Source: Arhodomonas aquaeolei DSM 8974 (GTDB taxonomy: Bacteria; Pseudomonadota; Gammaproteobacteria; Nitrococcales; Nitrococcaceae). From it: a stretch of DNA of 64,000 nucleotides. The translations under genes were made by a program, and so were the position numbers. Below the pieces are notes generated by a model. It had not been told where the DNA came from. It saw only the letters and a list, made by a program, of their open reading frames with translations, and did no database searches. The stretch is taken from assembly GCF_000374645.1 (NCBI RefSeq), contig NZ_KB894816.1:1-64000 (forward strand), written 5' to 3'. Within the stretch, counting starts at the first letter, position 1, and each line of letters opens with the position of its first letter. Positions 46,302 through 53,529 of this stretch are shown piece after piece.

Positions 46302-46305
<4 letters not shown>
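45031..46305 (+). CDS. hemA: Glutamyl-tRNA reductase
   Basis: The product is 424 aa. It makes glutamate-1-semialdehyde, the first step of tetrapyrrole synthesis. The catalytic Cys lies in [26 protein letters not shown] and the NADPH site [16 protein letters not shown] follow; a C-terminal dimerisation helix ends the protein. The ATG gives the standard start [14 protein letters not shown]. The stop overlaps the prfA start (GTGA). Confidence 0.97.
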
Positions 46306-47393
<1,088 letters not shown>

Positions 47394-47631
47394 CCCTTCC
47401 CACGTCCCGGCGCGCGACAGACCGTGGCCCCCTGAGCCACCCGGTCCGCACCCGTGGCCGCACCGTCTTCACGGCGGAGGGGCCGGGGAGCGGGAGCGCC
47501 CGGGCACGTGGATCGTGCGCCGAAAAGGCGTGCGACCTGCGCGGGGAACGTTTCGACCGTGGACCGGCTGCGCCAGACCACCGGCGATCGCCGGTCCGCA
47601 ACCGCCCCCTCCCGCCACTTTGCGAAGCACC

Positions 47632-47666
47632 AACGAAAAGGGCCGGCGCAGTGACTGCGCCGGCCC
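47632..47666 (-). terminator. dksA terminator
   Basis: A perfect 12-bp stem (47640-47651 with 47655-47666) with a TGA-type loop, followed on the minus strand by CTTTTCGTTGG. It lies 25 bp past the dksA stop. The 298-bp gap between prfA and dksA also has a small CCGGCGATCGCCGG palindrome near 47581; nothing else is seen. Confidence 0.8.
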
Positions 47667-47691
47667 CGGTGGCGACAAGCCGCGCGGGGGA

Positions 47692-48126
47692 TCAGGCCAC
47701 GCGCTGCTTCTCGCGGATCTCCTCGAGTGTCTTGCAGTCCACGCACAGCGTCGCGGTGGGGCGTGCCTCGAGACGGCGCAGGCCGATCTCCACACCACAC
47801 TGCTCGCAGAACCCGTAGTCGTCCTTGCGGATCCGCTCCAGGGTCTGGTCGATCTTGCGGATGAGCTTGCGCTCACGGTCGCGGGTGCGCAGCTCCAGCG
47901 CGAACTCCTCCTCCTGGGTGGCCCGGTCAGCGGGGTCCGCGTAGTTGTTGGCGTCGTCGCGCATATGACTCATGGTGCGCTCGACCTCCTCCTGGAGCTG
48001 GCGCTTCCATGCCGTGAGCAGCCGCTCGAAGTGCTCGAGCTGGGCATCGCTCATGTATTCCTCGCCCTCCGCCGGCTGATACGGCTCGATCCCGCGAACC
48101 GGCAGGGTGTTGGACTTGTCGGCCAT
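47692..48126 (-). CDS. dksA: RNA polymerase-binding transcription factor DksA
   Basis: The product is 144 aa. The coiled coil spans about 30-105 and has the tip region DPADRATQEEE with the Asp pair that acts in the RNA polymerase secondary channel. The zinc finger is CEQCGVEIG...CVDCK (four Cys). With ppGpp it reprogrammes rRNA and amino-acid promoters. Monocistronic with its own terminator. Confidence 0.96.
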   Translation of the reverse strand: MADKSNTLPVRGIEPYQPAEGEEYMSDAQLEHFERLLTAWKRQLQEEVERTMSHMRDDANNYADPADRATQEEEFALELRTRDRERKLIRKIDQTLERIRKDDYGFCEQCGVEIGLRRLEARPTATLCVDCKTLEEIREKQRVA

Positions 48127-48300
48127 GATGACTCCTCCCTATCCGGCAGCCGCCACCCGACGGCGGCGCCGGCGTTCAGCCTCCGGCGCACCTCCGGTGC
48201 ACCGTTCCGTGATCCGTCGCCGCGGGGGCGAACGAAAAGCCAACGCTCATTTACCCTCCCGACCCCCGGGGCGTCAACCCCGGAGACCGGGCACAGGGCA

Positions 48301-49371
48301 TCACGCGGCGCGCTTGCGCAGCGCTCCGCCGAGGCGGCGGTGGGCGTCGCGGAGCACCGTCTCCGTGGTCTCCCAGTCGATGCAGGGGTCGGTGATGGAG
48401 ACACCGTATTCCAGCGCCGAGGGATCGCCCTTGAGCTTCTGGTTGCCCCAGCCGATGTTGCTCTCGATCATCATGCCGGTGATCGAGCGGTTGCCCTCGA
48501 GGATCTGGTTGATCAGGTTCTCCACCACCAGCGGCTGCAGCCCCGGATCCTTGTTGGAGTTGGAGTGGCTGCAGTCGACGACCAGCTGCGTGCGCAGCCC
48601 CGCCTCACGCAGGTCCTTCTCGCACAGGGCGATGCTCACGGAGTCGTAGTTCGGTTGCTTGCCGCCGCGCAGTACCACATGGCCGTAGCTGTTGCCGCGG
48701 GTACGGATAACGGCGGACTGGCCCTCCTGGTTGATGCCCAGGAAGCTGTGCGGGCTCGCCGCCGAGCGCAGGGCGTTGATGGCTACGTCCAGGCTGCCGT
48801 CGGTACCGTTCTTGAAGCCAACCGGCGTGGACAGGCCGCTCGCCATCTCGCGGTGGGTCTGGGACTCGGTGGTCCGGGCGCCGATGGCGGTCCAGGTGAT
48901 GAGATCGCCGATGTACTGCGGCGTCAGCGGATCGAGGGCCTCCGTGGCCGCCGGCAGGCCGATCTCGGCGAGGTGCAGCAGCAGCTCGCGGGCCCGGAAC
49001 AGCCCCTCCTCGATGTGGAAGGAGTCATCCATGTAGGGGTCGTTGATCAGCCCCTTCCAGCCGACGGTGGTCCGCGGTTTCTCGAAGTACACGCGCATCA
49101 CCACGAACAGATTGTCCGCCACCTCGTCGTGGAGGCGCTTGAGCCGCGCGGCATAGTCCTTCGCGGCCTCGATGTCGTGCACCGAGCATGGCCCCACGAC
49201 CACCAGCAGGCGGTGATCCGTGCCGTCGATGATGTTCTCGACGGTGCGCCGGCCGTCCACGACGGTCTTGCGCGCGGCCTCGCTCAGCGGCAGCTTGCGC
49301 TTGGCCTCGAGCGGGGTCGGCAGGATCTCCTGCGCCAAGACGTTGATGTCGTCGATTTTCACTTCGCTCAT
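48301..49371 (-). CDS. 3-deoxy-7-phosphoheptulonate synthase, class I
   Basis: The product is 356 aa, of the AroF/AroG/AroH family. It condenses PEP with erythrose 4-phosphate at the start of the shikimate pathway. LLVVVGPCSVHD, RVYFEKPRTTVGWKGLINDP, GARTTESQTHREMASGLS, and VDCSHSNSNKDP (metal and PEP sites) are intact. Which end-product inhibits it cannot be read reliably. It stands between dksA and the clpX-like gene with gaps on both sides. Confidence 0.95.
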   Translation of the reverse strand: MSEVKIDDINVLAQEILPTPLEAKRKLPLSEAARKTVVDGRRTVENIIDGTDHRLLVVVGPCSVHDIEAAKDYAARLKRLHDEVADNLFVVMRVYFEKPRTTVGWKGLINDPYMDDSFHIEEGLFRARELLLHLAEIGLPAATEALDPLTPQYIGDLITWTAIGARTTESQTHREMASGLSTPVGFKNGTDGSLDVAINALRSAASPHSFLGINQEGQSAVIRTRGNSYGHVVLRGGKQPNYDSVSIALCEKDLREAGLRTQLVVDCSHSNSNKDPGLQPLVVENLINQILEGNRSITGMMIESNIGWGNQKLKGDPSALEYGVSITDPCIDWETTETVLRDAHRRLGGALRKRAA

Positions 49372-49499: not shown

Positions 49500-50732
49500 T
49501 CAGCCCGCCCGGCGGCAAGCCCCGAGGCGGCTGTCGGCGACATGCGCGGCGTCGACATGCAGCGTCCCCGGACCGGCGACGAACATGGGCTCGAGGAGCA
49601 CCCGTTCGAGCACACCGCGCAGGGCACGCGCGCCGGTACCCGAAGCCAGCGCCTCCTCGGCGATGGCCTCCAGGGCATCGTCGCCGAAGGTGAGCCGGCA
49701 GCCGTCCATGGCCATCAGGGACTGGTATTGCGCCACCAGGGCATTCCGCGGCTCGGTGAGGATGGCGCACAGCCCCGCGGCGTCCAGCGGGTCGAGCACC
49801 GCGGTGACCGGCAACCGCCCCACCAGCTCCGGGATCAGGCCGTAGGCCATGAGATCCTCCGGTGAAAGCGCCTCGGCCAACGGCGGCGTCTCCGCCATCT
49901 CCCCCGCCGGATCCGCGGCGAAGCCGACACCACCGGAGAGCTGACGACGACGAACGAGGGCGTCGATGCCGTCGAAGGCCCCGCCGCATATGAACAGGAC
50001 CTCGCGGGTGTCGAGCTCCGGGATGGGGGCACGGGGGCTCCGCCGGGCCTGGGGCAGCGGCACGCGGGTCCCCTCCAGGAAGCGCAGCAGCGACTGCTGC
50101 ACCCCTTCCGCGGAGACGTCACGGCCGTGCACCGGGCTGTCCGCACCGGCGGCGAGCTTGTCGATCTCGTCGATATAGACAATGCCGCAGCCGGCCAGGC
50201 CGATATCCCCGTCGGCGGCCTGGAGCAGCCGCTCGGCGATGACATCGACGTCCTCGCCCACGTAGCCCGCCTCGGTGAGGCCGGTGGCATCGATACTCAC
50301 GAAGGGTACCGCCAGCGAGCGCGCCAGGGTCTCGGCGAGCAGGGTCTTGCCGGAACCACTGGGGCCGAGCAGGAGCACGTTGCTCTTGCCGATCTTCGGC
50401 TCGCCGGGCGAACGGGTCCGGCGCAGGCGTTTGTAGTGGTTGTACACCGCCACGGCGAGGCTGCGCTTACCCCGAGTCTGGCCGATCACGTACTCGTCGA
50501 GAAAGGCATGGATCTGGGACGGCGTGGGCAGCGGGGCCGGCGCCAGGGCCCGCTCCGTCGCCCCCTCCTCGGCCAGGATGCGCGCGCACTCGGTGGCACA
50601 GCGCGCGCAGATCGAGACCGCCCCGGTCGCCACCAGGGTATTGGCGGCGCTCTCGACGCTGCCGCAGAAGGCACACGCCGTGGCCCCGCGATGCCCGTCA
50701 CCGATCGTCTTTCGCTCAGCGCTGCGGACCAT
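49500..50732 (-). CDS. ClpX paralogue (AAA+ unfoldase-like) with altered pore and ClpP loops
   Basis: The product is 410 aa. The N-terminal zinc domain (Cys 20, 23, 42, 45), Walker A GPSGSGKT (123-130), pore loop GYVG (156-159), Walker B IVYIDEID and sensor-2 GARALRGV are kept. Two ClpX hallmarks are changed: the RKH loop reads ARRSPRAP (about 229-236), and the ClpP-docking IGF reads VGF (269-271). It is not next to clpP, tig or lon, so it is probably a second copy beside a normal clpX elsewhere. GGGGAGG precedes the ATG. Role unknown: a specialised unfoldase, with or without ClpP. Confidence 0.88.
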   Translation of the reverse strand: MVRSAERKTIGDGHRGATACAFCGSVESAANTLVATGAVSICARCATECARILAEEGATERALAPAPLPTPSQIHAFLDEYVIGQTRGKRSLAVAVYNHYKRLRRTRSPGEPKIGKSNVLLLGPSGSGKTLLAETLARSLAVPFVSIDATGLTEAGYVGEDVDVIAERLLQAADGDIGLAGCGIVYIDEIDKLAAGADSPVHGRDVSAEGVQQSLLRFLEGTRVPLPQARRSPRAPIPELDTREVLFICGGAFDGIDALVRRRQLSGGVGFAADPAGEMAETPPLAEALSPEDLMAYGLIPELVGRLPVTAVLDPLDAAGLCAILTEPRNALVAQYQSLMAMDGCRLTFGDDALEAIAEEALASGTGARALRGVLERVLLEPMFVAGPGTLHVDAAHVADSRLGACRRAG

Positions 50733-50972
50733 GCCGGCCTCCCCCTATGCTTGCCTGCCGCCGGGGGGCGGTGTTCGTCTCCCCCATAGTGCATTTATAG
50801 AACGCCTGTCCACGCATGCCAGCGCCCCGGCCCCCCGCCACCGGGCCTTCGGCTTCTGAAACGGGACACCGGTCACGCGCACGTACGGCGCAACTGTCCC
50901 AACGCCTGGCACAGGCAGTACACTACGGGTTTGAGAACCAGATCGAACGCGGCTCACCGTCGGAGGCCCCGA

Positions 50973-51242
50973 ATGCCCCTGGACCGGAAACTCCTGGACA
51001 TCCTCTGCTGCCCCGTCACCAAGGTGCCGGTACGCCCGCTGCGCCGCGACGAGCTCAAGCGCGTCAACGAGCTGATCTCCGGCGGCACGCTCCACTACAT
51101 GGACGACAGCCCGGTGAACGAGCCCCTCGCGGAAGGCCTGGTCACGCGCAACGGAGAACGTGTCTACCGCGTCGATGACGGCATCCCCGTCATGCTCGAG
51201 GAGCGTGGCATGCTCGTCCGTCAGCTCGGCATCGGTGGCTGA
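50973..51242 (+). CDS. Trm112-like protein
   Basis: The product is 89 aa. The start MPLDRKLLDILCCPVTK and the end VYRVDDGIPVMLEERG match Trm112/UPF0434 proteins. The middle has an insertion of about 25 residues (LRRDELKRVNELISG...) relative to the E. coli YcaR type. Of the usual zinc Cys only the CCP pair is present, so zinc binding is doubtful. CGGAGG precedes the ATG. It overlaps prmC by 8 bp, which is notable because Trm112 partners a PrmC homologue in eukaryotes and archaea. Confidence 0.85.
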   Translation: MPLDRKLLDILCCPVTKVPVRPLRRDELKRVNELISGGTLHYMDDSPVNEPLAEGLVTRNGERVYRVDDGIPVMLEERGMLVRQLGIGG

Positions 51243-52098
51243 CCACCCCCCCATCGCGGAGGACGCCACCGTCACGGGGCTGCTGGCCGAGGGCCGCCGG
51301 CGGCTGGCCGGCGGCGACAGCCCGGGCCTCGATGCCGCACTGCTGCTGGCCCACGCCCTGGGCCGCAGCCGCACGTGGCTGCACACCTGGCCGGAGCATT
51401 ACCCGGGGGCCAGCGAGGTCGAGCATTTCCGGGCGCTGCTCGCGGCCCGTGCCCGGGGCGCACCTATCGCCCACCTCACCGGCGAGCGGGAATTCTGGAG
51501 CCTCGCGCTCACGGTCACCCCGGACACCCTGGTGCCACGCCCGGAGACGGAGACCCTGGTCGAGGCGGCGCTGGCGGTCTGCCCCGCCCCGCCGGAACGG
51601 CTTCTGGACCTCGGTACCGGCAGCGGCGCCGTGGCCCTGGCGCTGGCGAGCGAATGGCCGGGAACGGCGGTGGACGCCACCGAGCGCAGCCACGACGCCG
51701 CAACGCTCGCCCGGGAGAACGCCGCCCGCCTGGGCCTCGACGCCCGCGTCAGCGTCTTCGAGGGCGACTGGTTCGCCCCCCTGCCGGCACGGCGTTACCC
51801 GCTGGTGGTGAGCAACCCGCCCTACATCGGCGCCGAAGAGCCCGAACCCTGGCAGGGCGACGCCGCCCACGAGCCGCGTGGCGCGCTGATCGCCGCGGAC
51901 GCCGGCCTGGCCGCCCTGTGCACGATCGTCGATGACGCGCCGGATTGGCTGGCCCCCGGGGGCTGGCTGATACTGGAACACGGCTGGCGCCAGGGCGAGG
52001 CGGTCCGCGGGCTGCTCGCCGACGCCGGCTACACGGCCGTGCAGACCTGGCGGGACCTCGCCGGACACGAGCGGGTCACCGGCGGGCGCCGGCCCTGA
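51235..52098 (+). CDS. prmC: Release factor glutamine methyltransferase PrmC
   Basis: The product is 287 aa. The N-terminal helical domain is followed by a SAM-dependent domain with PHETET-type VPRPETETLVEAAL, LLDLGTGSGAVALALA, and the substrate motif VVSNPPYIG. It methylates the GGQ glutamine of RF1 and RF2. The start is taken as GTG at 51235 (VADHPPIAEDATV), inside the end of the Trm112-like gene. moeB follows 22 bp later. Confidence 0.94.
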   Translation: MADHPPIAEDATVTGLLAEGRRRLAGGDSPGLDAALLLAHALGRSRTWLHTWPEHYPGASEVEHFRALLAARARGAPIAHLTGEREFWSLALTVTPDTLVPRPETETLVEAALAVCPAPPERLLDLGTGSGAVALALASEWPGTAVDATERSHDAATLARENAARLGLDARVSVFEGDWFAPLPARRYPLVVSNPPYIGAEEPEPWQGDAAHEPRGALIAADAGLAALCTIVDDAPDWLAPGGWLILEHGWRQGEAVRGLLADAGYTAVQTWRDLAGHERVTGGRRP

Positions 52099-52120
52099 TC
52101 CACCGCGACCGGATACCCTG

Positions 52121-52873
52121 ATGGACGACGACCAGCTCCTGCGCTACAGCCGCCAGATCATGCTTCCCGGCCTCGACTATGAGGGCCAGCAGCGGCTGCT
52201 CGACGCCTCCGTGCTCATCGTCGGCCTCGGCGGGCTGGGCTCGCCGGCGGCGCTGTACCTCGCCGCCGCCGGCGTGGGGCGCCTGGTGCTGGCCGACTTC
52301 GACCGCGTGGCACTGACCAACCTCCAGCGCCAGATCCTCTACCGCAGTGAGGACGTGGGCGCGCTCAAGGCGGAGGTGGCCCGCGAGCGGCTGAACGCCC
52401 TCAACCCGGACGTGCGCGTGGAGACGGTCACCGACCCCCTGGACGACGCCAGCCTCCCCGACCTGGTCGCCGGGGTGGACGCGGTCGCCGACGGCTGCGA
52501 CAACTTCGCCACACGCTTCGCGGTCAACCGCGCCTGCGTCGCCGGCGGCCGGCCGCTGGTCTCCGCCGCGGTGATCCGGATGGAGGCCCAGATCGCGGTC
52601 TACCGCAGCGACCGCCCCGGCGCACCCTGCTACCGCTGCGTGTTCCCGGAAACCGGCGAGGCGGCGGAGACCTGCAGCGAGACCGGCGTGCTCGGCCCGC
52701 TCACCGGCGTGGTGGGCAGCCTGCAGGCGGTGGAGACGGTGAAGCTGCTCGCCGGGCTCGGCGAAGGGCTGGAGTCGCGGCTGCTCACCCTGGACGCCAT
52801 GCGGATGCGCTGGCGCACCCTCTCGCTCGTGCGGGATCCGGACTGCCCGGTCTGCGGCGGCGCGTCGGGCTGA
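52121..52873 (+). CDS. moeB: MoeB/ThiF-family adenylyltransferase
   Basis: The product is 250 aa, the size of MoeB. LIVGLGGLGSPAALYLAAAGVG (Rossmann), LTNLQRQILY, zinc Cys in APCYRC and CPVCGG, and the Cys of AETCSETGVLGP are present. It adenylates the C-terminal Gly-Gly of MoaD or ThiS. prmC-moeB linkage, common in gammaproteobacteria, favours MoeB; ThiF is the alternative. Confidence 0.9.
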   Translation: MDDDQLLRYSRQIMLPGLDYEGQQRLLDASVLIVGLGGLGSPAALYLAAAGVGRLVLADFDRVALTNLQRQILYRSEDVGALKAEVARERLNALNPDVRVETVTDPLDDASLPDLVAGVDAVADGCDNFATRFAVNRACVAGGRPLVSAAVIRMEAQIAVYRSDRPGAPCYRCVFPETGEAAETCSETGVLGPLTGVVGSLQAVETVKLLAGLGEGLESRLLTLDAMRMRWRTLSLVRDPDCPVCGGASG

Positions 52874-52890
52874 CCCGCGCGGCCGGCGCC

Positions 52891-53529
52891 CTACTCCGCC
52901 GCTGCCAGGCCAGCCTGGATGGCCGCCAGCAGGCGGTCCTCGGCCTCGGCCATGGGCAGCGTCACGCCCAGGCTGCGCAGGTCGATGACCTCCAGCCCGG
53001 CATAGCCGCAGGGATTGATCCGGGAGAAGGGCTCCAGGTCCATGTCCACGTTGAACGACAGGCCGTGGTAGCTGCAGCCCCGGCGCACCCGCAGGCCGAC
53101 CTGGGCGATCTTGGCACCCGCCACGTATACCCCCGGGGCGTCCCGCCGGGCGTGCCCGGTGATGCCGTCGTCGGCGAGCACGCGGATAACCGCGTCCTCC
53201 AGCAGCGAGACCAGCCGCCGCACGCCGAGACGGCGGCGGCGGACATCCAGCAGCGGATACGCCACGAGCTGCCCCGGGCCGTGGTAGGTGACCTGGCCAC
53301 CGCGGTCAACGGCGACGACCGGGATATCCCCCGGGGCGAGGAGGTGCTCGGGCCGGCCGGCCAGCCCCTGGGTGAATACCGGCGGGTGCTCCAGCAGCCA
53401 GAGCTCGTCGCCGGTCTCAGGACCGCGCTCGTCGGTGAACGCCTGCATCCGCCGCCAGGTGGGCTCGTAGGCCACGCGGCCGAGGCGGCGCACCCTGAGG
53501 GCGGGATCGTCGGCGACCACGGCGCTCAC
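52891..53529 (-). CDS. lipB: Octanoyl-(acyl carrier protein):protein N-octanoyltransferase
   Basis: The product is 212 aa. [21 protein letters not shown], the Lys motif [15 protein letters not shown] and the catalytic Cys in [12 protein letters not shown] are present. It moves octanoate from ACP to lipoate-dependent enzymes. The start is GTG within GTGA at the ybeD stop. lipA does not follow; convergent moeB does. Confidence 0.96.

Follow-up and report, generated by a model that had tools for sequence, protein, structure and literature searches.

The small gene that overlaps prmC in Arhodomonas aquaeolei DSM 8974 encodes a real Trm112-family protein of a bacterial subfamily that lacks the zinc ligands. 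We favour, with moderate confidence, the reading that this protein is a methyltransferase partner of the Trm112 type, tied to prmC by an old inherited operon, and that its client is another methyltransferase.

The overlapping genes and their surroundings

The window analysed here is the whole stretch of 64,000 nucleotides at the start of contig NZ_KB894816.1; the order and class referred to below are those of its organism (Nitrococcales, Gammaproteobacteria). The following genes and elements lie in it.

46302-47393, plus strand: prfA (RF1), with GGQ at residue 235; assigned by reading the translation only
49500-50732, minus strand: divergent second ClpX; TIGR00382 419 bits, ClpX zinc finger above the Pfam cut-off
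50962-50966, plus strand: Shine-Dalgarno-like GGAGG, 6 bases 5′ of the Trm112-like ATG; sequence reading
50973-51242, plus strand: Trm112-like gene, ATG at 50973, stop at 51240-51242, 89 aa; zinc-less subfamily, helix insert
51235-51242, plus strand: Trm112-like stop and prmC GTG start, overlapping by 8 bp; sequence reading
51235-52098, plus strand: prmC, release factor N5-glutamine methyltransferase, GTG start, 287 aa; TIGR03534, PF17827
52121-52873, plus strand: moeB/thiF-type adenylyltransferase, following gene in the putative operon; NF004281 317.8 bits, cut-off 266

The original prediction, that a Trm112-like gene overlaps prmC by 8 bp, was borne out. The 89-aa product matches PF03966 (Trm112p) with E = 2.1e-8 and 34.4 bits against a gathering cut-off of 22, and the downstream product matches TIGR03534 (RF_mod_PrmC) with 272 bits against a cut-off of 199. 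If, as the starts in relatives suggest, prmC begins at the GTG inside the shared segment, the overlap measures 8 bp; 9 of the 21 linked named loci have a GTG start that shares 4 bp with the Trm112 stop. There is no further in-frame ATG, GTG or TTG between the GTG at 51235 and the conserved N-terminal domain, and use of the in-frame starts that exist upstream, from 51160, would only lengthen the overlap. No promoter or terminator was found in scans of 50600-53000. Judged from their spacing only, the Trm112-like gene and prmC would lie on one transcript, and the overlap may couple the translation of both.

By its sequence, the product of prmC is an ordinary PrmC. Besides the TIGR03534 match it has its own N-terminal domain (PF17827 PrmC_N, 63 bits), a motif I of GTGSG and NPPY at residue 194, and its residues 18-285 align with E. 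coli PrmC (PDB 1T43, 2B3T; E 2.7e-75). Its substrate is presumed to be RF1, the product of prfA, which lies about 3.6 kb upstream. The hemA-prfA genes are parted from prmC by dksA, aroG and an opposite-strand clpX paralog (window 46302-49371). The paralog adjoins the Trm112-like gene in divergent orientation and is found near trm112 in 11 named loci; a stronger clpX (672 bits) is carried on another contig of the same genome.

A Trm112 subfamily without zinc ligands

A PF03966 profile search of the 3.96-Mb genome returned the Trm112-like gene as the sole match, with no second Trm112. The protein scored well under the cut-offs of both named NCBIfam subgroups (28.6 bits against 77 for the archaeal Trm112 equivalog NF038101, and 17.9 bits against 126 for the YcaR equivalog NF008806), and therefore belongs to neither. 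Only Cys13 remains of the four ligand positions of the zinc knuckle, together with an extra Cys12. That most of the zinc cysteines are lost had been noticed correctly, three of the four ligands being gone, whereas the claim that this makes the protein unusual did not hold: the loss is general in the subfamily and parallels human TRMT112, in which three of four zinc cysteines are described as replaced and no metal as bound (PMC6796863); a four-ligand knuckle is accordingly no strict mark of the family. Cysteine at positions 15-17 or 57-63 was present in none of 56 profile-found proteins (30 in the order and 26 outside it), while Cys12 and Cys13 were found in 17 and 21, respectively, of the 26 outside. 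The first relatives had been fetched with patterns including KLLDILCC, so that conservation of those letters was partly built in, and residue conservation was recounted on profile-found loci to avoid this bias.

In human Trm112, the residues reported to dock the methyltransferase are Leu8, Leu9, Ile113, Pro114, Met116 and Leu117 (PMC6796863). Their counterparts in the window protein, with equivalence assigned by motif spacing, are L7, L8, I71, P72, M74 and L75; on this alignment the docking residues (Leu-Leu, Ile-Pro-x-Met-Leu) are kept. Within the order, 30 of 30 proteins have aliphatic residues at 7 and 8, I71, P72, methionine or leucine at 74, and L75; outside it, the same list of sites is kept in 26, 24, 25, 26 and 23 of 26. 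Among 49 loci holding both genes, which include some genomes present twice under two labels, the Trm112-like protein has a median identity to the window protein of 61.5%, compared with 49.3% for PrmC. Conservation at this level indicates that the small gene is not chance coding.

An AF2 model of the protein (mean pLDDT 81.5) contains a helix insert at residues about 25-36, and members of the subfamily are longer than the YcaR type, of ~60 residues, by about 25 residues. In the model, the insert stands where eukaryotic Trm112 has its central domain; bacterial Trm112 orthologs have been described as being without that domain (PMC5372719). The best match in both Foldseek and VIA was PDB 2K5R (Z 12.1, rmsd 1.9, 76 aligned residues, 34% identity), which was also matched by sequence with E 1.6e-27 over 84 residues. 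This is the NMR structure of XF2673 from Xylella fastidiosa, an uncharacterised protein of the same long zinc-less subfamily, whose relatives in Arenimonas and Pseudoxanthomonas are encoded at loci with no PrmC match beside the gene. VIA fold scores for UPF0434 chains (Z 3.7-5.9) and archaeal Trm112 (6zxw and 6f5z, Z 4.5-4.6) were below the level that is safe on Z alone. Both programs also gave hits to PUA, SpeG and ribosomal chains, which lie outside the Trm112 family and were taken as chance. The YcaR/UPF0434 proteins (PDB 2PK7, 2JR6, 2JS4, 2HF1, 2JNY, 2KPI) have the PF03966 fold in common with the window protein, and resemble it in their N-terminal KLLDIL-CP and C-terminal DGIPVML-like motifs, but are about 60 aa long and described as a zinc-knuckle domain only (PMC5372719). 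Human TRMT112 is similar in its loss of zinc ligands and in its docking residues (PMC6796863); it differs in having a four-helix domain, and is a weak fold match to the window protein (Z 2.1-2.8).

Linkage to prmC within and beyond the order

PF03966 was present in 50 of 54 genomes of the order. A PrmC row was taken for 50 genomes (51 of 99 PrmC-search rows), the weaker second rows being taken as PrmB-like without a PrmB search, and all 50 have the Trm112-like gene. The two genes are adjacent on one strand in 48 of these 50. One exception (G290) seems to reflect a contig break: trm112 lies near the end of one contig, and a piece of prmC at the end of a second. In the other (G296), the Trm112-like gene is at a contig end, and the protein taken as PrmC matches the genome's own PrmB-like protein at 58.7% over 201 residues and the window PrmC at 46.5% over 213; prmC proper is probably absent from this assembly. 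The same Halorhodospira-like genome has a PrmB-like frame followed directly by moeB (L231:3637-4743) where relatives have prmC-moeB, an arrangement due either to chimeric assembly or to real replacement. Three further genomes (G275, G286, G299) lacked Trm112 and gave only the weaker PrmB-like row; in G308 both were missing.

Among 76 named loci encoding relatives, PrmC follows directly in 21, a contig end truncates one (L042), and no PrmC match lies in the DNA around the other 54 (8 kb at most on each side, and less where contigs are short). Names among the linked loci include Nitrococcus, Spiribacter, Halorhodospira, Alkalilimnicola, Aquisalimonas and Ectothiorhodospiraceae. A metagenome-assembled genome titled Lysobacteraceae (L048) equals a genome of the order (G274, L112) in gene order and identities, and is probably misnamed. 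In 20 named loci trm112 is preceded by dksA and aroG.

Downstream, moeB comes directly after prmC at 42 of the 49 linked loci. The seven exceptions comprise one locus that ends 75 bases past prmC (L118), two with about 0.6 kb of room (L111, L123), one in which moeB is inverted (L116), and three, two of them Nitrococcus, with no moeB within 3.8-7.1 kb downstream (L032, L033, L094). No functional connection between moeB and prmC is known to us, and conserved gene order alone therefore proves little. The link to prmC, found in 48 of 50 genomes and kept at the last three loci even without moeB, could mean function.

Outside the order, linkage was rare. Both genes were present in 113 of 134 class genomes (the two of the order included), and were linked in three, G000 and G072 of the order and G104. 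Short-type (YcaR-like) genes were never beside prmC in this survey; E. coli prmC is not known to adjoin ycaR either. A profile of the subfamily (A1), built from 35 rows, gave matches in 24 of 369 class genomes. Five of these were linked to prmC (G000, G323, G072, G104 and G220), and the other 19 had no PrmC within 0.3-1.5 kb on each side. The original proposal to count how often the subfamily adjoins prmC thus yielded 48 of 50 genomes of the order together with G104 and G220 outside it, and the linkage is not confined to one strain; with 21 of 76 named loci also linked, a single-strain accident was rejected.

The two linked genomes outside the order both belong to one family. G220 has clpX-like/trm112/prmC in common with G072 of the order, and G104 has trm112/prmC/aroG in common with it, so that a single origin of the linkage suffices. 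No independent recurrence in distant lineages was seen among the 113 class genomes with both genes. Across 398 Pseudomonadota genomes, 11 carried the subfamily, each of them from the window's class; phyla beyond Pseudomonadota were sampled only via named relatives. Five loci from other lineages (L043, L051, L053, L057, L102) have an aroG-like gene within about 2 kb and no PrmC match; the aroG neighbourhood may therefore predate the link to prmC. Neighbours elsewhere resemble peroxiredoxin, znuBC/HIT, purEK/nadC, holA and thrS, as judged only by eye from translations.

Candidate clients of the Trm112-like protein

Three gammaproteobacterial genomes encode class I methyltransferases that carry a Trm112-like domain at the N terminus (L227:586-1635, L228:544-1659, L229:440-1732). 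The first is over the Trm112 cut-off; the other two, at 21.1 bits, are just under it (over it in another scoring). Since the Trm112s of known function in the literature examined are partners of methyltransferases, and since such fusions exist in the class, we give most weight to a methyltransferase-partner role. Human TRMT112 has seven methyltransferase partners (PMC8708615), and N6amt1/HEMK2 is reported to methylate eRF1 efficiently only with TRMT112 (PMC6796863). By analogy, the window protein would, as a small subunit, dock on and stabilise one or several class I methyltransferases, binding via its N-terminal Leu-Leu and C-terminal Gly-Ile-Pro-Val-Met-Leu strand, both of which are kept.

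We looked for a corresponding surface on PrmC. Ten contact sites of human N6amt1 were placed according to how far they lie from Glu51, Asp77 and Asp103, which bind SAM (numbering of PMC6796863), an equivalence by sequence anchors and motif position rather than by superposition. We compared 39 PrmCs encoded beside the Trm112-like gene with 30 encoded without it, all sequences being less than 90% identical to each other and the 30 being the best by score of 126 gammaproteobacterial rows rather than a random draw. The mean number of hydrophobic docking sites was 4.77 beside the gene and 4.53 in the others (p=0.35); the same count on the human residues named in PMC6796863 gave 9 of 10. At the PrmC positions matching HEMK2 I48, L72, M74, L87 and L112, the residues R, T, Q, D or S predominate, and in both groups charged or polar residues prevail at four of these (I48, L72, L87, L112). 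The sites for M74 (p=0.025) and L112 (p=0.03) are less hydrophobic in the PrmCs of the order, in uncorrected comparisons. The site equivalent to Ile101 is hydrophobic in 18 of 39 PrmCs beside Trm112 and in 4 of 30 others (p=0.004, uncorrected). As the mapped sites have no overall excess of hydrophobic residues, PrmC-specific activation via a HEMK2-like interface was rejected.

Co-variation was assessed from mirror-tree distance correlations over 25 loci, a weak test with so short a protein. The Trm112-like protein correlated with PrmC at r=0.76, and with AroG and MoeB at 0.83 each. The partial r with PrmC was 0.07 given AroG and 0.27 given MoeB, and that with MoeB given AroG was 0.35. There appears to be little co-variation of the Trm112-like protein and PrmC beyond shared ancestry.

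The original prediction was of a PrmC-activator pair, and these data do not support it: the docking sites are no more hydrophobic, co-variation is slight, and no PrmC match lies around 54 of the 76 related loci. A two-subunit release-factor methyltransferase of the order, in which the Trm112-like protein binds, activates or stabilises PrmC as in Mtq2-Trm112, is now unlikely in our view. Same-strand adjacency in 48 of 50 genomes of the order, the overlapping start in the window and in 9 of 21 named loci, and the retained docking residues of the small protein all agree with it. PrmC and Mtq2/HEMK2 are described as acting on the same GGQ motif (PMC5372719), and HEMK2 activity is reported to need the zinc-less human TRMT112 (PMC6796863). 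In those systems a Trm112-family protein is joined to a GGQ-glutamine methyltransferase, while here it is gene linkage alone that is known, and the window PrmC has its own N-terminal domain without the hydrophobic docking patch. Mostly polar or charged residues at half of the mapped HEMK2-patch sites, the partial r of 0.07 given AroG, and the 19 of 24 gammaproteobacterial subfamily matches with no prmC within 0.3-1.5 kb count against the complex, as does the report that PrmC is active alone (PMC5372719). The hydrophobicity at the Ile101-equivalent site and the partial r of 0.27 given MoeB count against a reading in which PrmC is independent of the small protein. The beta-zipper of such complexes is said to be built on main-chain bonds, with side-chain conservation hardly needed (PMC5372719); docking of a zinc-free Trm112 to PrmC by its edge strand or another surface, as the first bacterial release-factor methyltransferase holoenzyme, seems distinctly unlikely. 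Our tests thus lower the odds of a PrmC complex and leave PrmC as a possible, if improbable, client.

A role unrelated to methyltransferases, for example as an adaptor or regulator that lies beside prmC by descent only, is rather unlikely. The varied neighbours elsewhere would fit it, and an LpxK with a YcaR-type Trm112 domain occupies one open frame in two gammaproteobacterial genomes (L171:866-2200, L172:314-1507), so that the association of Trm112-like proteins is not confined to methyltransferases; E. coli ycaR lies beside lpxK and kdsB. The gene has been listed among those found essential in E. coli by TraDIS only (PMC5821084). This role is at odds with the retained methyltransferase-docking residues, the methyltransferase fusions and the functions known for Trm112s in the literature examined. 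Neutral synteny around a functionless, decaying zinc-knuckle remnant would account for the loss of three of four ligands in a region conserved as a whole (prmC-moeB in 42 of 49 loci), and is highly improbable given that the protein's median identity exceeds that of PrmC (61.5% against 49.3%), that the gene is in all 50 genomes of the order with a PrmC row, and that the zinc ligands are absent subfamily-wide.

The inherited-operon reading agrees with the other neighbours outside the order, the PrmC interface sites that are not different overall, and the small co-variation. Against it, besides the points given above and the LpxK fusions, no client was found, and a profile search of the genome gave no HemK2-like enzyme over the TIGR00537 cut-off. 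On this inherited-operon reading, the gene would have been placed before prmC(-moeB) in an ancestor of the order and one family outside it. PrmC, with its own N-terminal domain and without a HEMK2-like hydrophobic patch, most likely does not need the Trm112-like protein, which probably serves a different methyltransferase of the cell.

The function of bacterial Trm112 was called unknown in a 2017 review (PMC5372719), and among the literature matches listed, subscription papers aside, no title or abstract start concerned a bacterial Trm112-prmC link. The subfamily described here, which lacks zinc ligands and has an additional helix, resembles animal TRMT112 in its zinc loss. With a single-copy Trm112 gene overlapping or abutting prmC throughout, the order lends itself to the question of whether bacterial Trm112s serve methyltransferases. 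If a zinc-free Trm112 does dock PrmC, the Mtq2-Trm112 partnership would exist in bacteria too.
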